NCBI GenBank assembly: GCA_021561035.1
Contig: CP067346.1
Coordinates: 3,131,001 to 3,195,000 of the forward strand
Direction: 5' to 3'
Length of the DNA: 64,000 bases
Source: Clostridioides sp. ES-S-0054-01
Lineage (GTDB): Bacteria > Bacillota > Clostridia > Peptostreptococcales > Peptostreptococcaceae
The notes beneath the pieces were generated by a model. It was not told the origin of the DNA, searched no databases, and saw only the letters and a program-made list of their open reading frames with translations. Positions 1,863 through 13,457 of the stretch are shown piece after piece; positions within the stretch are counted from its first letter, which is position 1; every line of letters starts with the position of its first letter. The translations under genes and the position numbers were made by a program.

Positions 1863-2333
1863 TTATTTAAACTCAATTACAGTATCCTTCCCACCTTCAA
1901 CACTATTTCCTACATTATATGTATTCATATTGTACTCTGAATGATTAGTTATTGTAACTGGAGTAATAAGTGATATACCCTTTGATTCAATCAAAGAACG
2001 GTCAATTTTTAATATTGGTGTTCCTTCTTTCACTTGTTCTCCCACACTTACCAATGCCTCAAAACCTTCACCTTTTAAATTTACAGTATCTAAACCAACA
2101 TGAATAAGAAGCTCCATTCCATTTTCTAATTCTATTACAAATGCATGTTTAGTCTCTGCTATCACTGCTATCTTTCCATTGATTGGAGCATAGAAAATAT
2201 CTCCTGTAGAATCTATAGCTACACCCTCTCCCATAAGTTTTTGAGAAAACACAGCATCTGGTATCTTAGATAACTCTATTACTTTTCCTGATATGGGTGA
2301 TTTTATTGATTTTTTTTTAAACATTTTGAACAT
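1863..2333 (-). CDS. PTS glucose-family EIIA component
   Basis: This 156-residue soluble phosphocarrier is a complete EIIA-Glc (Crr-like) domain. It has the lipoyl-like beta fold signature (SPISGKVIELSKIPDAVFS, APINGKIAVI) and both histidines: the accessory one in TKHAF (~78) and the phosphorylated one in HVGLDTV (~93). It would accept phosphate from HPr and pass it to the EIIB domain of the EIICB encoded three genes upstream in the same operon. It is the last gene of the operon, 24 bp after the SIS gene, and a terminator follows. The start ATG has an AAGGAG-type site. Confidence 0.88.
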   Translation of the reverse strand: MFKMFKKKSIKSPISGKVIELSKIPDAVFSQKLMGEGVAIDSTGDIFYAPINGKIAVIAETKHAFVIELENGMELLIHVGLDTVNLKGEGFEALVSVGEQVKEGTPILKIDRSLIESKGISLITPVTITNHSEYNMNTYNVGNSVEGGKDTVIEFK

Positions 2334-2357: not shown

Positions 2358-2957
2358 TTAACCATTATTAGCTGTTTTTAGCTTCTCACCTAGACTTCCT
2401 CCTGGATGATATTTATAAAAATCACCTGAATCAAAGTTACTATTCTTAGATAATGCACATGCAATAGAATCTCCTAAAACCAAAGTAATCGTAGATGATG
2501 TTGTTGGTGCTAAATTTAAGTGGTCTGCTTCATCCTTTGCAGGGTATATTAAAGCATAATCACACTCTTTTGCCAATACTGAATTTCTATTTGAAGTAAA
2601 TGCAATTGTTTTAGAACCTATTGCTTTAACATACCTTATACAATTTACTACTTCCATAGAATTTCCACTATTTGAGATTAAAATTGTAATATCTTTACTT
2701 TCAATCATTCCCAAATCTCCATGTACTGCCTCTGTTGCATGTACAAAAAAACTTGGTGTCCCAGTACTAGCAAATGTAGCTGCCAATTTCTTGCCTATAT
2801 GTGCAGATTTACCTACACCCATAAAAATTACTTTACCTTCACACTTGGCAATTTCATTAACTATACTTTCATATTCAATACCTACTTCATCTATTAAACA
2901 CTTTATGGCATTCATTTCAGTAGTCATAACATCAACCATTGTTTTTAAATAGCTCAT
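2358..2957 (-). CDS. SIS-domain sugar-phosphate isomerase, KpsF/GutQ-like, no CBS domains
   Basis: The 199-residue protein is a single SIS (phosphosugar-binding) domain: VIFMGVGKSAHIGKKLAATF at ~44-63, ATEAVHGDLGMI, ILISNSGNSMEVV at ~93, and the C-terminal FYKYHPGGSLGEKL typical of the KdsD/KpsF/GutQ arabinose-5-phosphate isomerase family. Family members usually carry two further CBS domains (about 320 residues); these are absent here. It probably isomerises a sugar phosphate produced by the operon's PTS. Neighbours: 20 bp after the MalY-like gene, 24 bp before EIIA. The exact substrate is not deducible. Confidence 0.78.
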   Translation of the reverse strand: MSYLKTMVDVMTTEMNAIKCLIDEVGIEYESIVNEIAKCEGKVIFMGVGKSAHIGKKLAATFASTGTPSFFVHATEAVHGDLGMIESKDITILISNSGNSMEVVNCIRYVKAIGSKTIAFTSNRNSVLAKECDYALIYPAKDEADHLNLAPTTSSTITLVLGDSIACALSKNSNFDSGDFYKYHPGGSLGEKLKTANNG

Positions 2958-2977: not shown

Positions 2978-4159
2978 TTAAATATTTTTTTCAATATAAT
3001 CTATAGTTTTTTTTATTCTATTTAAACCATCTTCAAGTTTTTCTCTTGAACATGCTACATTTAATCTTAAATAAAACTCACTTTCCCCGCCATATACATT
3101 TCCCGACATAATAGCAATTTCTCCAATATTCATCAATAATTTTTGGAATTTCTCACTACTTATCTTAAGTTCAGAAAAATCTATCCAAGCAAAGTAACAA
3201 CCTTCTGGCATAATCAACCTTAATGGTTCTAAACTATCTTTTATATAATTAATTGTATATTCAAGGTTCTCTTTAAGATATTTTAATAGCTCATCCAACC
3301 AATATTCACAATCATTATAACAAACCATTGTTGCTAGAATTGCTAGTATTGCGGGTGAATTTACAAAGTCACGGTATCTAGTGATATTTTCAAATTGATT
3401 TCTAATAATTTCATTTGGTATAATCACATACGAGCCAGTCAATGCTGGTATATTAAAAGACTTAGATGCCGATGTACAGATGAATATAGAATCTAAATAA
3501 CTATCTGCAACCTTTAAAATAGGAGTCATTCTCTTATCATATACAATATCCATATGTATATCATCTGATATTATCTTTACATTATTGTCCTTACAAATAC
3601 CTATCATCTTAGCGAGCTCTAACTCACTCCACACTCTTCCAGTTGGATTATGGGGATTACATAAAATAAATATCTTAGACTCTTTGCATTTTTTCTCAAA
3701 ATCCTCAAAATCAATCAAATAGAATCCATCTTCATTTACAAGAGGCGATTTTATAATATTACGATTATTATTTGATATAACATCATAAAAAGCATTATAT
3801 GCAGGAGTATTTATCAGGATTCCATCTCCTTCATCACTAAATATCTCAACAAGTTTACTAATTGAGTACATTACACTAGGACTGTAATATATCCAATTAC
3901 TATCAATACTACAATTAAATCTTTTAATGTACCAATTCGTAACTGAATTTCTAAAATCATCATGTTTCCATCTACTATATCCCAAAACTCTATGATTTAA
4001 TCTTTCTTGTAAGACTTCTGTTATTTCATGTGGAAACTCTAAGTCCATATCTGATATTGTAAAAGGAAGTAACCCCTTTTTTCCAAATCTATCTTCTACA
4101 TAATCCCATTGGGTACAATATGTACCCAATCGGTCTATTTTTTTATCAAAGTTAATCAT
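2978..4159 (-). CDS. MalY/PatB-type PLP-dependent C-S lyase/aminotransferase
   Basis: A 393-residue fold-type I PLP enzyme. It shows YSRWKHDDFRNSVTNWY, FILCNPHNPTGRVWS (~165-180), ISDDIHMDIVY (~197), and STSASKSFN-like FICTSASKSFNIPAL (~227-241) with the Schiff-base lysine. These are hallmarks of the MalY/PatB cystathionine beta-lyase group. In E. coli, malY sits beside the PTS gene malX and its protein also binds the regulator MalT; the same gene pairing occurs here. Its start overlaps the 3' end of the EIICB gene by 8 bp, so translation is probably coupled. Whether its role is enzymatic or regulatory is unknown. Confidence 0.82.
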   Translation of the reverse strand: MINFDKKIDRLGTYCTQWDYVEDRFGKKGLLPFTISDMDLEFPHEITEVLQERLNHRVLGYSRWKHDDFRNSVTNWYIKRFNCSIDSNWIYYSPSVMYSISKLVEIFSDEGDGILINTPAYNAFYDVISNNNRNIIKSPLVNEDGFYLIDFEDFEKKCKESKIFILCNPHNPTGRVWSELELAKMIGICKDNNVKIISDDIHMDIVYDKRMTPILKVADSYLDSIFICTSASKSFNIPALTGSYVIIPNEIIRNQFENITRYRDFVNSPAILAILATMVCYNDCEYWLDELLKYLKENLEYTINYIKDSLEPLRLIMPEGCYFAWIDFSELKISSEKFQKLLMNIGEIAIMSGNVYGGESEFYLRLNVACSREKLEDGLNRIKKTIDYIEKNI

Positions 4160-5729
4160 TACATGCCTCCAAATGACCTTCCATAGCTTTATCCATCTGC
4201 TTTCTCAAAGAATACACTTGAGTTCCTATAATTACTTGTATTGTGTGTTCATCCAATTTAACAACTGCTATACCACCAGCTTCTTTAATTGCATCCTCAT
4301 TTATTAGTGATACATCTTGTAATTTTAAACGTAGTCTCGTTACACAATTATCTAGTGATAATATATTAGATTGTCCACCTAAAGCAGCTATCATTTGCTG
4401 TCCTTTATATGTAGATAGATTTTTAAAATCTGAACCATTTCCCTCAGATACTTTTATTTCTTTATCCTCACGTCCTGGCGTCTTTATATTAAACTTAATA
4501 ATTGCCCACTTAAATACAAAATAGTATATTGCAAAGTATAAAGCTGCTACTAATACTGCTATTGGCCATCCTGTAGCTGTACCTCTTAACACACCAAAAC
4601 TTATAAAAGCAATTAAATCTCCTGTAAATCCCATTAATACACCCAAATATGGAAGTACCATGTTTGCTAAACCATTCATAAATGTATGGAAGGCAAATAG
4701 TGCTGGTGAGATAAATAAGAATAAGAATTCTATTGGCTCACTTATACCACCTATAATAACTGTCAACACTCCTGATATTAAAAGCCCTTTAAGTGCTTTC
4801 CTATTTTCTGGTTTTGCTGTACAATATATAGCTAGTGCAGCACCAGCTAATCCATATTGAATCATTAGTTTACCTTGTTCCATTTTACCAGCTAAATCAA
4901 GAGGTATAATCTGATTATTCTCTACATATGCCATAAACATATTCAATGTACCAAAGTATGTTTCTCCATCAATAACAGCAGTTCCACCTATTGGTGTAAA
5001 ACGGAATACAGATGTTACAAGATGATTTAATCCAAATGGAATTGTAACTCTTTCTGCTACTGCATATGAGAAATATCCCAATGGTCCTGCTGAAGAAATC
5101 CATTTTCCTAAATTTTGGAATGCATTGAAAAATGGTGGCCAAACAATAGGTATTAATAATCCAACAATACTCATAACTATTAAACTAACAATTGGAACTA
5201 GTCTTGGACCACTGTAGAATCCTAATGATTCTGGCATTTTTAAATTACTAACTTTATCATATATTGCATAAACAATTAGACCTGCTACAATACCACCTAA
5301 AACACTTGTATTGTATGTTTGTATCCCCATAATCATAGCTTGACCATTAGTTGACATTTGGTCTACTGGTACTAATAAGTCAGCTCTTGTTAAATAAAAA
5401 TTTGTACCTATATGCATTGCTATAAATCCTACTAAACCTGAAAAGGCTCCAAACTCTTTTTCTTTTTTTAATAATCCTAATGGAATCGCCATTGCAAATA
5501 ATGCTCCCAAATTATTAAATGCAAATAATCCTATTGTCAGCATGAAGTTTAAAACTAAGTTAACATATTCATTTCCTAAAAACGGCACCATGGCAATCAT
5601 CTTAGGGTCTGTAAAACCTGCACCAAGCCCTAACATCATCCCTGAAACACTAAGTAGTGCTATTGGGAACATAAACGTTTTTCCTAACATTTGGAAGAAG
5701 TTCCATAAACCTAACTTATTTTTTTTCAT
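4152..5729 (-). CDS. PTS EIICB, glucose/maltose (MalX-like) family
   Basis: The 525-residue membrane permease has an N-terminal EIIC domain (~1-400; about ten hydrophobic segments; GGISEPIEFLFLFISP is the family substrate-loop motif) and a C-terminal EIIB domain (~440-520) with the phosphorylated cysteine in LDNCVTRLRLKLQD. No EIIA is fused; a separate EIIA is encoded at the end of the operon. It imports and phosphorylates a sugar of the glucose/maltose/N-acetylglucosamine superfamily, but no phosphoglycosidase is in the operon, so a monosaccharide is plausible. Transcription must pass four RAT-terminator modules just upstream, giving antitermination control by the BglG-type protein. Confidence 0.87.
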   Translation of the reverse strand: MKKNKLGLWNFFQMLGKTFMFPIALLSVSGMMLGLGAGFTDPKMIAMVPFLGNEYVNLVLNFMLTIGLFAFNNLGALFAMAIPLGLLKKEKEFGAFSGLVGFIAMHIGTNFYLTRADLLVPVDQMSTNGQAMIMGIQTYNTSVLGGIVAGLIVYAIYDKVSNLKMPESLGFYSGPRLVPIVSLIVMSIVGLLIPIVWPPFFNAFQNLGKWISSAGPLGYFSYAVAERVTIPFGLNHLVTSVFRFTPIGGTAVIDGETYFGTLNMFMAYVENNQIIPLDLAGKMEQGKLMIQYGLAGAALAIYCTAKPENRKALKGLLISGVLTVIIGGISEPIEFLFLFISPALFAFHTFMNGLANMVLPYLGVLMGFTGDLIAFISFGVLRGTATGWPIAVLVAALYFAIYYFVFKWAIIKFNIKTPGREDKEIKVSEGNGSDFKNLSTYKGQQMIAALGGQSNILSLDNCVTRLRLKLQDVSLINEDAIKEAGGIAVVKLDEHTIQVIIGTQVYSLRKQMDKAMEGHLEACND

Positions 5730-5775
5730 AATTTTACCCTCCTATTTTTATCTAAAAACATAATCAAATTTATAG

Positions 5776-5852
5776 AAAAACCTAAATCAAAAAACTCAAT
5801 TAATAATTAAGTTAAATGATTTAGGTTTTGCCTGCTCAACCAGTTACAATCC
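5776..5852 (-). promoter_or_regulatory. RAT 4 with its terminator (closest to PTS gene)
   Basis: RAT at 5824-5852 with GGATTGTAACTGG and a TTGAGC variant loop, then AGGCAAAACC. The terminator is at 5776-5829. About 45 bp separate it from the EIICB start codon at 5729. This is the last checkpoint before the structural genes. Confidence 0.85.
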
Positions 5853-5876
5853 TAAAAGTTACTGTCTATATTTAAT

Positions 5877-5956
5877 AAAAAAACCTAAATCAAAAAACTT
5901 AACTTAATAGTTAAATTCAATGATTTAGGTTTTGCCTGCTTAACCAGTTACAATCC
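5877..5956 (-). promoter_or_regulatory. RAT 3 with its terminator
   Basis: RAT at 5928-5956, identical in core to RAT 2. Terminator at 5877-5933 with the same ACCTAAATCA/TGATTTAGGT stem and a T-run. The near identity of units 2 and 3 suggests recent duplication or gene conversion. Confidence 0.85.
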
Positions 5957-5980
5957 TAAAAGTCACTGCTTGTATTTAAT

Positions 5981-6060
5981 AAAAAAACCTAAATCAAAAA
6001 ACTTAACCTAATAGTTAAATTCAATGATTTAGGTTTTGCCTGCTTAACCAGTTACAATCC
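5981..6060 (-). promoter_or_regulatory. RAT 2 with its terminator
   Basis: RAT at 6032-6060 (GGATTGTAACTGGTTAAGC, AGGCAAAACC). The overlapping terminator is at 5981-6037, with the stem ACCTAAATCA/TGATTTAGGT and a run of seven T residues on the minus strand. Binding of a phosphorylation-controlled BglG/LicT-type dimer to the RAT would prevent the terminator from forming. Confidence 0.85.
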
Positions 6061-6084
6061 TAAAAGTCACTGTCTGTATTTAAT

Positions 6085-6163
6085 AAAAAAGCCTAAATCA
6101 AAAAACTTAATCTAATAGTTAAGTTCAATGACTTAGGTTTTGCCTGCTTATCAGTTACAATCC
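6085..6163 (-). promoter_or_regulatory. RAT 1 (first transcribed) with its terminator
   Basis: The RAT spans 6136-6163 (GGATTGTAACTG then GCAGGCAAAACC). The terminator stem runs from AACCTAAGTCA to TGATTTAGGC, followed by TTTTTTATTA (6085-6141). The RAT's first G is also the last base of the antiterminator gene's TAG stop (6165-6163). Two bases fewer in the RAT loop than in the other copies. Confidence 0.85.
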
Positions 6164-6999
6164 TAACAACCACTGTTTGTTATTTTATTTATGTGAATCA
6201 TTAGATATAATTCTTCTTCTTTACTAATTTTATATTCAAACCTGTCTAATACCAATGCTGCAATTTCCTCAGTACATATTTTAGGTTTATTATAATTTTT
6301 ATTCACCAACTTGTACATATCTTCAATATCACTATCTTTATAAGTTTCTTTTCTTAAAATCCTTTGAACAAAAAACTTTAAGTGAGTTATAAGTCTAGTG
6401 TAATTTAGTGAATTTACATCTAATTTAAACCCATGTACTTCTTCAATTATCTGAATAACTTGTTTTGAAAACTCAAGTATATTAATACCTTCATCTTTTT
6501 GAGAACTTTCCAAGCCATTGATTACATGAATGGCAATATATCCTGCTTCATCTTCAGGCAATTTTATTCCTATCTTTTTTTCAATTTCATTAATTGCCCA
6601 TAATCCAAATTCAAATTCTTCTCTATAAAGTTGTTTTGTCTCATTCAAGATTAAGTTTGGTAATTTTATACCTTGTTTTTCTCTTTGGACAGCGAATTCT
6701 ATGTGACTAGTTAAGGCTAATATTATTGAATCATTCACTTGAGTATTTAAAACTTCATTAGCCTTTTCTATAATTTCTTCTGAAATTTTAAAGTATTCAA
6801 TAGAGGTCTTATTAAGTATTTGATTGTATTTGTCTTTTTGATTATCTTGAACAAAATATTTCTTAGAAATCAAATTTTCATCTATCAAATCTCCTACTTT
6901 TTTCTTGAATCCAACCCCAGCACCAGTAACAATTATTTCTGTGCCATCTTCTAGGGAGCTTACTACGACATTGTTATTAAATATTTTTTTTATATTCAC
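6163..6999 (-). CDS. BglG/LicT-family transcriptional antiterminator
   Basis: The 278-residue RNA-binding regulator has an N-terminal CAT domain (~1-55: FNNNVVVSS, ITGAGVGFKKKVGD) and two PTS regulation domains: PRD1 (~65-165; LTSHIEFAVQR and ELYREEFEFGLWAI) and PRD2 (~175-278; LTHLKFFVQRI, LMIHINKI). The PRD histidines would be phosphorylated by EIIB (inhibiting) and HPr (activating). It starts at GTG after GAGGGG. Its own promoter lies at 7039-7067. The stop TAG overlaps the first of four RATs, so its target is almost certainly the downstream PTS operon. Confidence 0.9.
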   Translation of the reverse strand: MNIKKIFNNNVVVSSLEDGTEIIVTGAGVGFKKKVGDLIDENLISKKYFVQDNQKDKYNQILNKTSIEYFKISEEIIEKANEVLNTQVNDSIILALTSHIEFAVQREKQGIKLPNLILNETKQLYREEFEFGLWAINEIEKKIGIKLPEDEAGYIAIHVINGLESSQKDEGINILEFSKQVIQIIEEVHGFKLDVNSLNYTRLITHLKFFVQRILRKETYKDSDIEDMYKLVNKNYNKPKICTEEIAALVLDRFEYKISKEEELYLMIHINKITNSGC

Positions 7000-7038: not shown

Positions 7039-7067
7039 ATAGTATATTATATTTAATTTAATGTCAA
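7039..7067 (-). promoter_or_regulatory. Sigma-A promoter of the antiterminator gene
   Basis: TTGACA (7067-7062) and TACTAT (7044-7039) are separated by 17 bp on the minus strand, about 40 bp before the GTG start. The -35 is perfect and the -10 matches four of six bases. Confidence 0.6.
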
Positions 7068-7739: not shown

Positions 7740-8426
7740 TTAGTATCTTAAATTTCCTATACTTTTTATAAACATCAATTTACCATTATTTATTCCCCAT
7801 AACTCATCACCACGTAAAGCAATTTTATCCAAAGTTGTAGTTATTATCACACATTTATTATCTTTAGATGCTAATTTGTAAAATATATCTACCAAACTTT
7901 TTTCACTTTTATCATCAGTATTTTCTATAATATCATCACAAATTATTAAGTCAGGATTATTAGATAATGCCCTAGCAATGCAGACTCTCTTATTATCATA
8001 GTTAGACAAATCTTTCACTTTACAATTTGCTTTATCTTTATCAATTCCTACTTTTTGCAGAATTCTATATACAATTTCATTTTTATTCTTTTCTCTGTTT
8101 CCACCAATCAGCATAGTTAGAATAATATTATCTAAAACAGTAGCATCATTTAACAAGTTATAATCTTTAAATATTGCCCCTACATACTTGCTTCTATAAA
8201 TATTTTTATTTATTCTTTTTAAATCTTCACCCTTATACATAATACTTCCACTAGTGCAATCATCAATCCCTGATATTATAGACAACAAAGTACTCTTTCC
8301 TGCTCTGGTTTTTCCTATAATAACATACATTTTTCCAGTTTCAAATTCTACACTCACATCTTTTAATACAAAATTACTACTACCCTCATATTTATAATTA
8401 ATATCAATTAATTTAAGTATTGACAA
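7740..8426 (-). CDS. ABC ATP-binding protein with degenerate catalytic motifs
   Basis: The 228-residue protein follows the MacB/BceA-type nucleotide-binding fold. Walker A is intact (GKTRAGKST, 38-46). Other motifs have drifted: the Q-loop glutamine is lysine (IFKDYNLL, K87), the signature LSGGQ is LSNYD (140-144), the Walker B catalytic glutamate is aspartate (LIICDD, D165), and the switch histidine is absent (VIITTTLD, ~193-200). It probably binds ATP but hydrolyses it poorly, or acts as a regulatory subunit. It is last in an operon with a two-component system and an FtsX-type permease, 10 bp after the permease. The intact ATPase at 35159 serves as contrast. Confidence 0.8.
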   Translation of the reverse strand: MSILKLIDINYKYEGSSNFVLKDVSVEFETGKMYVIIGKTRAGKSTLLSIISGIDDCTSGSIMYKGEDLKRINKNIYRSKYVGAIFKDYNLLNDATVLDNIILTMLIGGNREKNKNEIVYRILQKVGIDKDKANCKVKDLSNYDNKRVCIARALSNNPDLIICDDIIENTDDKSEKSLVDIFYKLASKDNKCVIITTTLDKIALRGDELWGINNGKLMFIKSIGNLRY

Positions 8427-8436
8427 TATACCTCAC

Positions 8437-9795
8437 CTAATTTCTATCATAAATTATTTGTATTGGCTGAAACATAATTGTACTATATATAGATACTGTA
8501 CTAGTCAGTAATATTAATATCATTGCTATAAATATTATCTTAAACATAAAATTTAAAGTTGATTTATCTTTTAAGTTTTTCATCTCTTGTTTGGTGTTGA
8601 AGTCATTTATACTTATATCTTTATATTCCCCTTGATTAAACAAAGAGTCATTATATGTTACATTGTATTTATATTGATATTCAAAAACATAATTTGATAT
8701 TGCTTTTTCTAATATACTTGCAATTCCTAATCCAAGTACAATACATATCAAAATTATTATAATACTTTCATAAATAAAGCTTCTAATTATCTTAAATTTA
8801 GACATTCCAATTAGTATCAACACACCTATATCATATTTTATTTTTCTTATTGATATTGTGGAACTTATAATCAATAATATTACACCTAACACTAGTATCA
8901 CAAGAGTAGACGTAAAGGCTACACCAGACAAATGTTTTATTGGTGTTATTAATTTATAATATGATAACTCATCTATAGTAACTTTATATACATCACTTAG
9001 CCCTTTATTTCTTAGTTCTTTCTCAAAAGCCTTTCTACTATTAGAATCTCTAAGTAAAAAACTAGCACTTGTATAAATCATCTTACTTTCTGGTTTAATC
9101 TTTTTTTCAAACATTACTAAAGTATTATATGAGGTTAATATATTGTTGTATATATCTATGTCTTGAGCATTTTCTACTTTACTGCTATCTTTTTTCTTAT
9201 ATACACCTACTATTTTTAAATTTAACTTCACATTAGTATCATAATCACTTAATAAAGATATTGTATCCCCAACCTTAAGCTTATTAACCCCTAGAAAATC
9301 TTCACTTACTATACATTCATTGTCTTTTTGAAATACGCTTCCTTTGCTTATATCTAAATTATAATATTTAAGACTTTTATTTTTATCTGTAAATCCCATA
9401 ACTGCACAATTTATAGCTATATTATTATACATAAGGTTTTTATTATTACTAGATACATATTTATCGTTATCAATGTATAACACAATGTTTCCTATAAGTG
9501 ACATTTTCTTTACATATTTTGATTTTGAAAAGTTTAGATAGTCATCTAAATTTAAAGCATTATATCCTATCAAAGGTTCTATTAAATCATTTTGAACAAT
9601 TTTTTTTTCATCAAATTTAATACTGACCTCTGACTCAAGTTTTTTCTCATATTTTTGACTTATAATGGATACACTTAAATTTATTATCGAGGAAACAGCT
9701 ATTGATAAAACCATTAATAATATAATAACTACTCTAAATAAACTATTAACTTTATTTCTAATCAAGTTTTTGATTGCATTATTCAAAATATACAC
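8437..9795 (-). CDS. FtsX/MacB-type ABC transporter permease
   Basis: The 452-residue membrane protein has one N-terminal hydrophobic segment (~15-40), a large extracytoplasmic loop (~45-285), then three hydrophobic segments (~290-315, ~335-365, ~420-445). This is the four-helix layout of MacB/FtsX proteins. RKIKYDIGVLILIGMSKFKI (~317-336) is the cytoplasmic coupling segment of the family. With the ATPase it would form a transporter or a signalling and mechanotransmission complex. The upstream two-component system suggests a role in sensing or detoxifying an extracellular peptide or envelope stress. The substrate is unknown. Confidence 0.8.
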   Translation of the reverse strand: MYILNNAIKNLIRNKVNSLFRVVIILLMVLSIAVSSIINLSVSIISQKYEKKLESEVSIKFDEKKIVQNDLIEPLIGYNALNLDDYLNFSKSKYVKKMSLIGNIVLYIDNDKYVSSNNKNLMYNNIAINCAVMGFTDKNKSLKYYNLDISKGSVFQKDNECIVSEDFLGVNKLKVGDTISLLSDYDTNVKLNLKIVGVYKKKDSSKVENAQDIDIYNNILTSYNTLVMFEKKIKPESKMIYTSASFLLRDSNSRKAFEKELRNKGLSDVYKVTIDELSYYKLITPIKHLSGVAFTSTLVILVLGVILLIISSTISIRKIKYDIGVLILIGMSKFKIIRSFIYESIIIILICIVLGLGIASILEKAISNYVFEYQYKYNVTYNDSLFNQGEYKDISINDFNTKQEMKNLKDKSTLNFMFKIIFIAMILILLTSTVSIYSTIMFQPIQIIYDRN

Positions 9796-9857
9796 TTTAT
9801 ATCTCCTCTTATCAATTAATACTATGTTAGCAATATTATTATAATCTTTATTAATTG

Positions 9858-10904
9858 TTACTTATATTCTTTAAACACTAAATAAAATGTTGAACCTTTA
9901 TTTTCTTCACTTTCAACCCATATAAAACCATTACATAAATTACATACATGTTTTACTAAACTAAGACCTATACCATAACCATCTTTATTTAATTCATTTA
10001 TTCTATACCTATCATAAAATATTTTATCTATATAATGCTGTTTCATTCCAATTCCATTGTCTTTTACTGATACAATGACACTTCCCTTTTGATTTTTTAC
10101 ATTTACATATATATCCTTACCTTCACCATATTTTATTGCATTATCTAAAAGATTGGATACTCCTCTATAAATCCACTTTTCTTTTCCATAGATACTCATA
10201 TTTTCATCTTCTTCAAAATCAAATTTCAAATTACTATACACTGTAGAATAATTATCACACACTTGTGCACATATTAAAGCTATATCTACCTCATACATAT
10301 CCTCATTATTTTTTATATCACTTATTGCAAGTACATCTTCTACGCTATTTGAAACCTTATCAAGAGTATTTAATAATTCCTCATTTCCATTAAGTTCTAG
10401 ACTCGTTCTAAGTGTAGATATTGCATTCTTTTGTTCATGTGATAAATATGAATTCAATCTTTTATAATCCTCAATATGAGAATCAAATTTATTTTTTAAA
10501 TTTTTATATACTCTAGACATAATAGGGTCTATAGTCAATATTTCATTCTCATCTTCAATGTTATTTATATTATTTAATATTTCTATTCTTGCTTTAAAAT
10601 CCAATCGATTTAGTATTGATAAAAGTATAAAGTTAGATGTTACTATAAAGGCAAAAAATAGTATTATTACAACATTAAAATTATTCTTAAGTATAAGATT
10701 ATAATTACTCATTTCCACTTTATCTAAGACATAAGAATTGTTTAAGGTCATTTCGCTATTAGATGAAGTTAAATCTCTAGAAATTAAGTTATTATCTATA
10801 TCTGATATGTTTATAATATATTTTAGACCTACTGTAAAAATTATAAAAACTATAACAGAATATAAAATTAACACAATAGTTTTTTTATCCTTTAATCCTT
10901 GCAT
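9858..10904 (-). CDS. Sensor histidine kinase
   Basis: The 348-residue kinase has two transmembrane segments (~10-30 and ~75-98) around a short extracellular loop of about 45 residues. The DHp helix carries the phospho-accepting histidine in YLSHEQKNAIS (~155). The ATPase domain has N box LLDNAIKYGEG, G1 VKDNGIGM and G2 GYGIGLSLVKHV. No PAS or HAMP domain is evident, and the small sensor loop fits kinases that take their signal from a partner ABC transporter. It overlaps the end of the response regulator gene by 13 bp, so the two are translationally coupled. Confidence 0.88.
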   Translation of the reverse strand: MQGLKDKKTIVLILYSVIVFIIFTVGLKYIINISDIDNNLISRDLTSSNSEMTLNNSYVLDKVEMSNYNLILKNNFNVVIILFFAFIVTSNFILLSILNRLDFKARIEILNNINNIEDENEILTIDPIMSRVYKNLKNKFDSHIEDYKRLNSYLSHEQKNAISTLRTSLELNGNEELLNTLDKVSNSVEDVLAISDIKNNEDMYEVDIALICAQVCDNYSTVYSNLKFDFEEDENMSIYGKEKWIYRGVSNLLDNAIKYGEGKDIYVNVKNQKGSVIVSVKDNGIGMKQHYIDKIFYDRYRINELNKDGYGIGLSLVKHVCNLCNGFIWVESEENKGSTFYLVFKEYK

Positions 10905-11563
10905 ATAGAATATCCTATCCCTCTAGTAGTTATTATTATATCTTTACCTGCAACTTCTTTTAATTTCTTTTTTAATCTAGCTATATGTACTCTTAATACA
11001 GATGATAAAGGGTCAAAATATTCATCATAGACGTGTTCTGATATATCCACACCTGATACAATATCTGGATATCTACTTGCAAGATATTCTGCTATATCAA
11101 ACTCTTTGGTGCCTAACTTTACTTCTTCACCATATACATATACTTTTCTAGATGCTGGATTTATTGTAATAGGACCTGCTTTTATATCTGGGTTTGTCCT
11201 ACCATAAAATCTTCTTATAACTGCTTGTATCCTCGCTCTTAATTCTATAATCTGAAATGGTTTTACTATATAATCATCAGCTCCTAAATCCAGACCTTTT
11301 GCCAATTCGTTTACCCCATCTCTTGCTGTTACAATTATTATGGGCGTATTTAGATTATTACTTCTAAAAAATTCTAATATCTCTATTCCATCTTTATCTG
11401 GCAAGTTTAAATCTAATAATATAACATCATAGTCATTTATAAATGCTTTTTCTTCTCCATCTAATCCACAATTTGCTATATCTGCTACCAATCCTTCATT
11501 TTCCAAACCTGACTTTATATTATAAGAAAGTTCCTTATTATCCTCTATTATTAATACTCTCAC
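10892..11563 (-). CDS. OmpR-family response regulator
   Basis: From the GTG at 11563 the product is 223 residues, starting MRVLIIEDN. An in-frame ATG farther upstream (11635) gives a non-homologous 24-residue leader. AGGAG lies 8 bases before the GTG, which decides the start. The receiver domain has the acidic pair in IIEDN, the phospho-Asp in VILLDLNLP (~51), the T in IVTARD and K in YIVKPF. The winged-helix effector domain (~125-223) ends ARLKKKLKEV...ITTRGIGYSI. It is first in the operon with kinase, permease and ATPase, and likely binds the direct repeats at 11609-11627. Confidence 0.9.
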   Translation of the reverse strand: MRVLIIEDNKELSYNIKSGLENEGLVADIANCGLDGEEKAFINDYDVILLDLNLPDKDGIEILEFFRSNNLNTPIIIVTARDGVNELAKGLDLGADDYIVKPFQIIELRARIQAVIRRFYGRTNPDIKAGPITINPASRKVYVYGEEVKLGTKEFDIAEYLASRYPDIVSGVDISEHVYDEYFDPLSSVLRVHIARLKKKLKEVAGKDIIITTRGIGYSICKD

Positions 11564-11597
11564 ATAATCATCTCCTAAATAAAATATCAATTTACAT

Positions 11598-11627
11598 ATT
11601 ATATATAATGAATGTTTATTGAATGTT
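11598..11627 (-). promoter_or_regulatory. Promoter with two direct repeats upstream of the response regulator
   Basis: Minus strand: AACATTCA occurs at 11627-11620 and again at 11616-11609, an 11-bp period, directly before TATAAT (11603-11598). Tandem half-sites one helical turn apart overlapping the -35 region are typical for OmpR-family activators, so autoregulation is likely. Confidence 0.45.
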
Positions 11628-11745
11628 AACTTCACTTAATAATTATTTATATTTTAAACAAAACATAGCATTATTATTATCTAAATACTTATACTTGTCA
11701 AATTTAAGTTGAGCTAATTCAATCTTTTAATATTCTCCACAATAC

Positions 11746-11781
11746 AAAAAGATGAATCCATCTAATAGAATTCACCTTTTT
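11746..11781 (-). terminator. Rho-independent terminator
   Basis: Minus strand: AAAAAGGTGAAT pairs with ATTCATCTTTTT (12 bp including one G-U) around a 12-base loop, ending in a T-run. It lies 210 bp past the trxB stop and upstream of the response-regulator operon. Confidence 0.6.
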
Positions 11782-11884
11782 ATATTAAATCTTTATTTTG
11801 AAATAACATTTATTAATGTTGAGAGGATGTATTAAAAAAATAATACCTGTAATCTTTATTAATTTTAAATATATTTCAATATTA

Positions 11885-11926
11885 TATCCACCATAAATAA
11901 CAATTTATAATTATTGATGATGGATA
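11885..11926 (-). other. Long stem-loop downstream of trxB
   Basis: Minus strand: TATCCATCAT pairs with ATGGTGGATA (one U-G), and the inner AATAATT pairs with AATTGTT. No T-run follows, so this may be a processing or 3'-stabilising hairpin rather than a terminator. Confidence 0.35.
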
Positions 11927-11990
11927 TAAAAATTCCATAATTTTATTTTTTATAAATTTAAAACTAGTATCACTAATAATTTACTTTTAA

Positions 11991-12875
11991 CTAATAAGCA
12001 TCAACAAGCATAGACTTTTTTATCTTTTGCTTATCTAGATAAGAAATTGCACTAGATACAGCTGTCTGACCCTGACCTGCTGATTTTAAATATTGATATG
12101 GTTTACCAGCACAATCTCCTGCTACATATAAACCCTCGATATTTGTATTCATATTCTTATCTGATTTTATATGAGAATCTTCTATTTCTAATCCTGGAAC
12201 CATATATTTCGGTGATACACTATCTTTTATAATGAAGATACCATCTATATCTAGCTCATTTTCTCTCAATACTAATTTATTCACTAGTTTTTCACCTTGT
12301 ATTTCTAAAGGTTTATCATTTATTACATTTATACTACTATTGATTTTATTTTCTAATTTATACATAGGTATATAGTATACACTACTTGCTATTTCACTTA
12401 AAAAATTTGCTTCTTCTTCTGCTTCATGATTATATCCTATTATAGCTACTTTTTTATTTCTGTACAACATAGCATCACATGTTGCACAATATCCTACTCC
12501 TTTTCCAAGATATTCTTCTTCTCCCTTTATCATTTTTCCATATTCAATACCTGTAGCTAATACAACTGTAGTTGATTCATATGTATCATTTCCAGAAACT
12601 AATGTAAAATATTCACCCATACTATATACATTATTGATTCTTTTTGGGGTTATTTTTATTCCCATCTCATCTATATGTTTTTTAAATTTATCTTTAAGTT
12701 CTAAACCACTTATGTTACCAATTCCTAGATAATTTTCTATAGAAGGAGCTTTTATAAGTTTTTGACTTATCTCTTCAGTTCCAAATAAAATTATATTTTT
12801 GTTTCTAATTTTAGCATTTATAGCAGCTGCAAGTCCTGCGGGACCACTTCCTATTATTGCAATATCGTATCTCAT
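11991..12875 (-). CDS. trxB: Thioredoxin reductase-like flavoprotein, probably ferredoxin-dependent type
   Basis: The 294-residue two-domain flavoprotein has the FAD-binding GSGPAGLAAAINA at the N-terminus, the redox pair in YCATCDAML (~131-139) and the C-terminal FAD motif GLYVAGDCAGKPYQYL. The second nucleotide-binding site lacks the NADPH signature: GGGDSAxEE is replaced by GYNHEAEEE, and the HRR motif by YIPMYK. Such losses mark the clostridial ferredoxin-dependent flavin thioredoxin reductases. It would reduce the thioredoxin encoded 264 bp upstream. It is transcribed from its own promoter region, which shares a motif with that of trxA. A fully intact NADPH enzyme is unlikely. Confidence 0.85.
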   Translation of the reverse strand: MRYDIAIIGSGPAGLAAAINAKIRNKNIILFGTEEISQKLIKAPSIENYLGIGNISGLELKDKFKKHIDEMGIKITPKRINNVYSMGEYFTLVSGNDTYESTTVVLATGIEYGKMIKGEEEYLGKGVGYCATCDAMLYRNKKVAIIGYNHEAEEEANFLSEIASSVYYIPMYKLENKINSSINVINDKPLEIQGEKLVNKLVLRENELDIDGIFIIKDSVSPKYMVPGLEIEDSHIKSDKNMNTNIEGLYVAGDCAGKPYQYLKSAGQGQTAVSSAISYLDKQKIKKSMLVDAY

Positions 12876-12947
12876 AATCTCACCTATTTTTTATAACCTT
12901 TCCTTTTTCTTTTATATAAATAATATATCAACAGTCAATATCATTAG

Positions 12948-12969
12948 CAATTAGGTACTTATTTGTAAC
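12948..12969 (-). promoter_or_regulatory. Conserved trx promoter motif, trxB copy
   Basis: Minus strand: GTTACAAA-T-AAGT-AC-CTAATTG, identical at 19 of 22 positions to the element before trxA. The final TTG falls at a -35 position (TTGCTA), 17 bp before TATATT. The same geometry is seen at trxA. Confidence 0.5.
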
Positions 12970-13000
12970 TACATAAAACATTTATACTATAAACAAGGTG

Positions 13001-13109
13001 CTGTCTCAAAACAGAGATAAGCCTCTTTTTCATTGTTGAAATGATGAAAATATATTTGATTTCATACAAAAAAGAGTACCTCATGAACCAAAAAGTTCAT
13101 TTTGAGACA
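13001..13109. repeat. MITE-like repeat, copy 1
   Basis: A 109-bp non-coding element bounded by TGTCTCAAAA and its exact inverse TTTTGAGACA. Internally it has pairing segments (CCTCTTTTT against AAAAGAGTACCTC). It sits between trxA and trxB and may end trxA transcription. Related copies are at 19976-20093 and 54443-56072. Confidence 0.7.
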
Positions 13110-13139
13110 CCCCCTGTTTGTACATATAATTTATTTTAA

Positions 13140-13457
13140 TTACATATATGATTCAACTTTGTCTTTCAAATTATCTTTAGGTATAAAACCTATTAATCTA
13201 TCTACAGGTTTTCCATCTTTAAATATTATTACAGTTGGTACTGTAGACACTTCAAACTGTTGAGTTAGTTCTATACTCTGGTCAATATCCACCTTTAAAA
13301 AGCTTGCTTTTTCAGCCATCTCATTTCCTAAAGCTTCATATATTGGTGATAACATCTTACAAGGTCCACACCAAGTTGCAAAAAAATCTACAACTACTAA
13401 TCCTTCTTTATTTTCTACTTCGTTTATAAATTCATTTTTATTTATTATTTTTGCCAT
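13140..13457 (-). CDS. trxA: Thioredoxin
   Basis: The 105-residue protein is a complete classical thioredoxin: VVDFFATWCGPCKMLSPIYE (~23-42) holds the WCGPC active site, followed by VDIDQS and the cis-proline in STVPTVIIFKDG (~73-84). It is a cytosolic dithiol reductant for ribonucleotide reductase, peroxidases and other Trx clients, recharged by the flavoprotein encoded next. AAGGAGATATATATT precedes the ATG. It is probably a monocistronic unit because a MITE-like repeat and a second promoter separate it from trxB. Confidence 0.95.
   Translation of the reverse strand: MAKIINKNEFINEVENKEGLVVVDFFATWCGPCKMLSPIYEALGNEMAEKASFLKVDIDQSIELTQQFEVSTVPTVIIFKDGKPVDRLIGFIPKDNLKDKVESYM

Follow-up and report, generated by a model that had tools for sequence, protein, structure and literature searches.

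Our analysis revealed four modules, each a RAT (the RNA site bound by LicT/BglG-type antiterminators) with an overlapping intrinsic terminator, arranged one behind another between a LicT/BglG-family antiterminator gene and a PTS operon in Clostridioides sp. ES-S-0054-01. We consider it likely, at a probability of about 80%, that these modules are protein-controlled transcription gates in series before the operon. The antitermination mechanism itself is known; the novelty lies in how many modules stand in series and in the lack of an upstream RAT. With four stages, the locus would be a natural extension of a switch otherwise known with one or two, and the natural three- and four-module versions offer material for studying what serial terminators do to leakage and dose response.

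Four RAT-terminator modules precede a PTS operon

On the minus strand, a promoter-like site is followed by the antiterminator gene, the four RAT-terminator modules, malX, malY, a SIS isomerase gene and an EIIA gene. A sequence-only reading of the window (the whole stretch of 64,000 nucleotides that was analyzed) had claimed four copies at an exact 104-bp period, each with a LicT/BglG-type RAT overlapping an intrinsic terminator. The four copies were confirmed on the minus strand at window positions 6163-5774, between the antiterminator gene and malX, and four RAT matches with overlapping hairpins and U-rich tails bear out the composition of each copy. The period holds for two spacings (104 and 104), but in the first the RAT starts are 103 bp apart. 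The units had also been called near-identical, which is true of modules 2 and 3 only; overall, sibling modules in the source genome are 83 to 97% identical. TRF returned a single array at 5768-6185 with a period of 104, 4.0 copies and 91% matches.

RAT1 (28 nt; 6136..6163, minus strand; motif match, letters rechecked) overlaps the antiterminator stop codon, and its 3' end is overlapped by terminator 1 (6085..6139, minus strand; predicted hairpin, −17.7 kcal/mol). Further along the same strand, three 29-nt motif matches, RAT2 (6032..6060), RAT3 (5928..5956) and RAT4 (5824..5852), are accompanied by predicted hairpins for terminator 2 (5981..6035; −21.8 kcal/mol), terminator 3 (5877..5931; −21.8 kcal/mol) and terminator 4 (5774..5827; −19.3 kcal/mol). 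The last base of the TAG stop codon is the first base of RAT1 in all seven genomes that carry the array.

The RAT consensus pattern that we used is close to the one printed in the retrieved part of PMC12628678. From base composition, the looser form of the motif is expected to match by chance about 8e-8 times in the whole window. In the 3.93-Mb genome, the stricter form matched these four sites only, and the looser form added one RAT at another antiterminator locus. The genome holds ten matches to the CAT domain. When up to 5 mismatches were allowed, three of the other nine CAT-domain loci had RAT-like sites (two sites at one locus and one each at two) and six had none, so our pattern may overlook more divergent kinds of RAT. 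One other antiterminator locus of the source genome (L135) has a RAT before the gene and a RAT-like site (3 mismatches) after it, the latter with a weak terminator prediction on a stretch ending 52 bases past the RAT. An antiterminator-like gene split over two reading frames occurs in the source genome at L139 (G000:C1:3244670-3245490), and one likewise in two pieces occurs at G007:C1:3894903-3895723.

Could RAT base 8, an A in this array, pair with a CAT residue and so insulate the locus from the nine other CAT loci? We did not retain this idea, which may or may not hold, as an A at this position also goes with CAT domains of a quite dissimilar kind (L058, L068). By eye, RATs with G at position 8 mostly end in a 3' AAGACC and those with T or A mostly in AAAACC or AATACC, which are perhaps recognition classes.

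No Rfam family reached its gathering threshold in the window. At E values up to 10 there were 32 matches, all under their gathering scores, among them RF03530, the SpF19 sRNA and numerous families, microRNAs for example, that seem to match by chance. The RF03530 (bglG-cis-reg) matches scored 26.8, 24.5 and 16.3 bits against a gathering cut-off of 80, below the score for membership. All four hairpins escaped a simple terminator scan, probably on account of the internal loop that they contain.

The antiterminator and the operon genes

The antiterminator gene (6163..6999, minus strand) has a GTG start and encodes 278 aa with a CAT RNA-binding domain (PF03123, 67 bits; cut-off 25) followed by two PRDs (PF00874 in two stretches). 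In alignments with solved LicT structures, all four positions of the regulatory PRD histidines are conserved. The protein scored 280.5 bits against the NCBIfam LicT equivalog NF046042, under the curated cut-off of 300; by sequence it is therefore classed in the same family as LicT but, by NCBIfam, not as a LicT equivalog.

The first gene after the array encodes a malX-like PTS EIIBC (4152..5729; profile matches). It is followed by genes for a malY/PatB-like C-S lyase (2978..4159; TIGR04350 at 346.4 bits, exceeding the cut-off of 340), a SIS-domain phosphosugar isomerase-like protein (2358..2957; profile matches) and a glucose-family PTS EIIA (1863..2333; profile matches), all on the minus strand. 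By gene order and annotation, the locus corresponds to CD3031-CD3027 of C. difficile, with the antiterminator as CD3031, malX as CD3030, malY as CD3029, the SIS gene as CD3028 and the EIIA gene as CD3027; this equation uses gene order, the product names in the retrieved part of PMC4026244 and the neighboring thioredoxin gene in that of PMC10880999, rather than the sequence of strain 630. The claim that serial RAT-terminators of LicT/BglG type stand before a PTS operon is thus supported, with the antiterminator gene directly upstream.

Before the antiterminator gene lies a TTGACA-17-TACTAT site (7039..7067, minus strand) that matches the consensus at 10 of 12 positions, and both hexamers and their spacing are kept in 7 of the 7 array genomes. 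The promoter scan gave 51 sites versus 45.5 in shuffles of this A/T-rich DNA, so that a match alone means little, and the site is called promoter-like from its consensus match and conservation. The scan also lists sites inside the antiterminator gene, for example at 6317-6289 and 6255-6227. A better-scoring candidate at 7348-7320 (11 of 12) was dropped, as the source genome is the only one of the seven to have it. A scan that tolerated up to 5 mismatches found no RAT upstream of the antiterminator gene in G000.

Predicted folds and conservation of the modules

The last bases of each RAT double as the 5' arm of a long, A/T-rich hairpin that ends in a U-rich tail. Compared with shuffles, the hairpins have z scores of −4.1 to −6.4 (calculated on slightly longer stretches); the terminator of module 1 is the weaker one (−17.7 kcal/mol). 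In the absence of protein, the terminator is predicted to be better than the stem-extended RAT fold by 7.3 to 8.1 kcal/mol in the source genome and by 5.1 to 10.8 kcal/mol across 26 modules. Over the minimal RAT fold, its predicted advantage in the source genome is 4.8 to 7.8 kcal/mol, on slightly different stretches. Energies from stretches ending 52 bases after the RAT (L125-L128, L135, L136 and G066) were left out. Because forcing the RAT fold costs energy, the terminator is the predicted default, and protein would be needed to open the gate. RAT and intrinsic terminator are predicted by these folds to be mutually exclusive.

In the 26 modules examined, a TTTTAGG before the RAT can pair with a CCTAAA after it, which adds 4 pairs to the RAT stem (3 in module 1). 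When the 18 bases that precede the RAT are compared with the end of the antiterminator gene, 14, 14 and 12 of them agree in modules 2, 3 and 4, respectively. We considered that the TTTTAGG before RATs 2-4 might be a mere copy of the gene end and discarded this explanation, since the motif is also present ahead of both G066 RATs and of two RATs in Bacilli (L125, L126) and is able to lengthen the stem; it is at least partly functional. The match to the gene end remains compatible with a duplication that included the last codons.

The 26 modules of seven genomes comprise 17 distinct sequences. All nine RAT pairs are unchanged in every one of them, and the 29 RAT columns are invariant except for column 3 and three apical-loop columns. 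In contrast, third codon positions of the neighboring gene are 84 to 97% identical between array genomes. The terminator cells are paired at 97.2%, and the lower terminator stem is kept in the 26 modules, except for one outer pair in part of them. Covariation in the stems of the 26 modules showed no excess over shuffled controls. What the stems show is conservation, not compensatory change, and we therefore dropped covariation as support for the terminator stem in favor of conservation.

All features of BglG/SacY RAT antitermination that can be tested in the DNA were found here, namely, the CAT domain, two PRDs, the RAT consensus, mutually exclusive folds and a PTS gene downstream, and the array should belong to that class.

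Proposed gating and dose response

Starting from what the DNA itself holds (the modules, their overlaps, the gene order and the conservation), we infer a promoter, protein binding, termination, PTS control and a sugar signal in the following scheme. RNA polymerase would start about 40 bases before the antiterminator gene, read the gene and then meet four terminators before reaching malX. When the antiterminator is not active, each terminator hairpin would be favored, and most transcripts would end at one of the four. When a PTS substrate is present, the antiterminator, with its CAT domain and two PRDs, would become active, clamp each RAT as it emerges and block the hairpin. Transcription of malX, malY, the SIS gene and the EIIA gene would require passage through all four gates. 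Read-through would approximate the product of four probabilities, so that the off state would be very low and the open state would demand that every site be highly occupied. Standing before the gates, the antiterminator gene is expected to be expressed regardless.

The sequence-only reading had proposed that serial terminators make leakage extremely low and the response to antiterminator dose steep or switch-like. We calculated both for independent gates with 90% termination per module. Under these assumptions, leakage falls from 0.1 with one module to 1e-4 with four; extremely low leakage is plausible in that it holds in the arithmetic, where leakage multiplies down. The steepness was overstated: the effective Hill coefficient is 1.27 for four modules versus 1.00 for one, though the maximal log-gain goes up from 0.52 to 2.08. 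From one to four such gates, the half-point moves from 1.0 to 4.7 in Kd units, and the output reached at 90% occupancy goes down from 0.91 to 0.69. These figures suggest that what four gates add is a tighter switch with a raised threshold, whereas the curve steepens only modestly.

Distribution and age of the array

In a set of eight Clostridioides genomes, sampled as one genome per species, seven carry the array: five with four modules and two with three (4, 4, 4, 4, 4, 3, 3). All seven have an intact antiterminator frame before the array, and malX starts 123 to 125 bp past the start of the last RAT. The eighth genome (G003) has neither an antiterminator orthologue (best match, 40% identity) nor an array. 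Among C. difficile records, CD10-165 and HC132 have four modules and CD160 has three.

Outside the genus, arrays of three or more were not found by exact patterns in 63 family genomes, 389 class genomes and 398 Bacilli genomes (partly overlapping sets) or in IMG/VR. In the family set, 30 of 71 genomes had a RAT, and none of the 63 outside the genus had two RATs within 200 bp when checked by eye. The tandem pattern (period 76-112) matched 2 of 391 genomes of the class, both Clostridioides, leaving 389 genomes outside the genus with no match; some family genomes belong to both sets. In Bacilli (the class of a Leuconostoc), 57 of 220 genomes had a RAT, and four of the 57 had a pair 88-121 bp apart; the triple pattern (period 77-107) matched 0 of 398 Bacilli genomes, a set largely including the 220. 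The triple pattern with a period of 87-117 had no match in IMG/VR, and phage records had no match to the array. Divergent arrays or other periods can escape such exact patterns, as would G001, with its own period of 114-115, in the class and Bacilli scans.

The array had been attributed to recent duplication, with a copy number that might vary among strains as in a phase-variable VNTR. Recent duplication was not borne out. The homogeneity among units that it would leave was absent: 25 of the 26 modules have their closest counterpart in another species-level genome rather than among their siblings, and for one there is a tie. Sibling identity over the 26 modules is 80 to 97% (mean, 0.887), and mean same-position identity between genomes is 0.947 for first modules, 0.947 for inner modules (pooled) and 0.930 for last modules. 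First modules form their own clade (support, 100/99), and those of G000, G002 and G006 are identical over 98 bases; inner and last modules do not separate cleanly. Since modules are closer across genomes than to their siblings, the array predates the split of these lineages. In G001 (L129 1805-2113), both spacers among the three modules contain the same extra 10-11 bases (period 114-115), which are absent from the other six genomes and are a sign of exchange or re-amplification between repeats in that lineage. Judged from these comparisons, module number appears to have changed by about one, with little change between lineages, and the array looks old and stable rather than recently duplicated or flickering.

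Alternative explanations

Can one module account for the regulation, with the extra copies as neutral leftovers of an old tandem duplication that add little effect? Tandem repeats arise easily, the presence of three modules rather than four in 2 of the 7 genomes implies that the exact number is not critical, and the same extra bases in both G001 spacers are a sign of repeat turnover. We nevertheless regard this explanation as unlikely, because none of the seven genomes has fewer than three modules and because all nine RAT pairs, along with the lower terminator stem apart from the one outer pair, persist in 26 modules that are old enough (25 of 26 being closer to another genome's module) for decay to have had time to show. 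Copy number is indeed three or four between lineages, as it might be if strains quickly gained and lost modules with a heritable change in operon leakiness. Such phase variation is highly improbable given that four modules are common to five of seven lineages, that modules match by position across species-level genomes (to identity in the first modules of G000, G002 and G006) and that siblings averaging 0.887 identity, with a range of 80 to 97%, are a poor substrate for fast slippage.

Two further explanations separate the RATs from the terminators. The RATs might mainly soak up antiterminator and set a threshold rather than act as gates: four predicted binding sites lie behind the gene encoding the protein, and RAT1 would be present on every antiterminator mRNA extending past its stop codon. 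Every RAT, however, has its own overlapping terminator with a U-tract, which a decoy does not need, and the short RNAs ending at these terminators, as products of the same promoter, would be no more than roughly stoichiometric with the mRNA, which makes this role very unlikely. Conversely, the strong predicted hairpins with U-tails in series would suit plain terminators that insulate the operon against read-through and have lost their response to the antiterminator. There is scarcely any chance of this, as all nine RAT pairs are invariant across the 17 distinct module sequences and the operon behind the array is strongly regulated in the retrieved published data (PMC4026244; malY 20-fold up in biofilm in PMC6143707).

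Relation to known systems

In the bgl operon of Escherichia coli, a RAT overlaps the terminator, and the antiterminator gene has a RAT on either side. As described in the retrieved part of PMC12628678, bglGTH of C. acetobutylicum resembles our locus in that the RAT overlaps a terminator, the antiterminator gene comes first and a PTS gene follows the RAT-terminator; it differs in that its antiterminator gene is flanked by two RATs, one on each side, where we found none before and four after. Reporters in that study show BglG-dependent read-through, the same mechanism, and its authors ascribe most of the sugar response to the downstream RAT.

The four Bacilli doublets (G473, G577, G602, G532) all have two RAT-terminators 88-121 bp apart before a PTS EIIBC gene. 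The antiterminator gene precedes the pair in three of the four (L125, L127, L128), and none was seen in the stretch examined for L126. Unlike the Clostridioides arrays, they have two modules only, with similar RATs but dissimilar terminator stems (L125-L128), and RAT position 8 is T in seven of their eight RATs and G in one, whereas it is A here. Tandem riboswitches, such as triple c-di-GMP-I riboswitches, termed "pseudo-cooperative" in the retrieved part of PMC9481103, likewise place independent sensor-terminator units in series under one signal, and that of PMC12452182 reports triple tandem T-boxes. In our locus, the proposed signal is a PTS-controlled protein rather than a small molecule or tRNA binding the RNA. 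The RF03530 bglG motif of C. difficile CD3117-CD3115 is also a cis-element of a BglG-type operon but, according to the available text of PMC11477304, is a single element located upstream of its antiterminator gene, and our array falls below its gathering score. Judged by titles and abstract openings, which are weak evidence of absence, the literature on multiple or tandem RATs describes no array of more than two.

Among the 71 family genomes, the only close antiterminator outside the genus (E at most 1e-75) is that of G066, a member of another genus, at 68% identity. Its locus (L145) has the same five-gene order, with identities of 68% for the antiterminator, 80% for malX, 77% for malY, 72% for the SIS protein and 65% for EIIA (over part of the protein), and in both loci the antiterminator stop codon overlaps the downstream RAT. 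G066 has one RAT-terminator before and one after the antiterminator gene, whereas in Clostridioides none was found before and there are three or four after. Tentatively, and with the odds somewhat against the scheme as a whole, we suggest that Clostridioides swapped a feedback switch for a serial gate: the upstream RAT, and with it positive feedback, would have been lost, the antiterminator placed under an unregulated promoter and the downstream RAT amplified to three or four, giving tight repression without feedback bistability. In addition, the overlap of RAT1 with the stop codon might let a terminating ribosome cover RAT1 and so tie gate 1 to translation. The direction of change, from feedback to serial gating, is perhaps as described, judged from a single outgroup. 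The G066-type operon with its feedback layout is available for comparison.

Published expression data and genomic neighborhood

The operon is of interest since malY is the most up-regulated gene in C. difficile biofilm (20-fold) and is cited as essential in the retrieved part of PMC6143707, which gives the operon as CD3027-CD3030. In a microarray comparison of an R20291 fliC mutant with its parent in mice, as given in the retrieved part of PMC4026244, CD3030, CD3029, CD3028 and CD3027 were at 0.04, 0.05, 0.06 and 0.07, and the antiterminator CD3031 was at 0.37. By our computation, these values correspond to changes of 14- to 25-fold for CD3030-CD3027 versus 2.7-fold for CD3031. The break in expression coincides with the position of the array in the source genome; mRNA decay or an unseen promoter could also produce it. 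The same source indicates that glucose or CcpA seemingly has no control over these genes. The retrieved parts of PMC12772354 and PMC3369931 contain nothing on this operon.

According to the retrieved part of PMC10880999, CD3027-CD3031 lies within a variable region of the species, and the PTS genes are missing from trxB4-containing strains, with the exception of the ancestral strain SA10-050. Beside the PTS operon, window positions 7740-13457 hold genes for an ABC transporter ATPase, an FtsX-like permease, a histidine kinase, a response regulator, a thioredoxin-reductase-like protein and a thioredoxin (Pfam). Both the thioredoxin region and the PTS region thus appear to be present in the ES-S-0054-01 genome, as in SA10-050.
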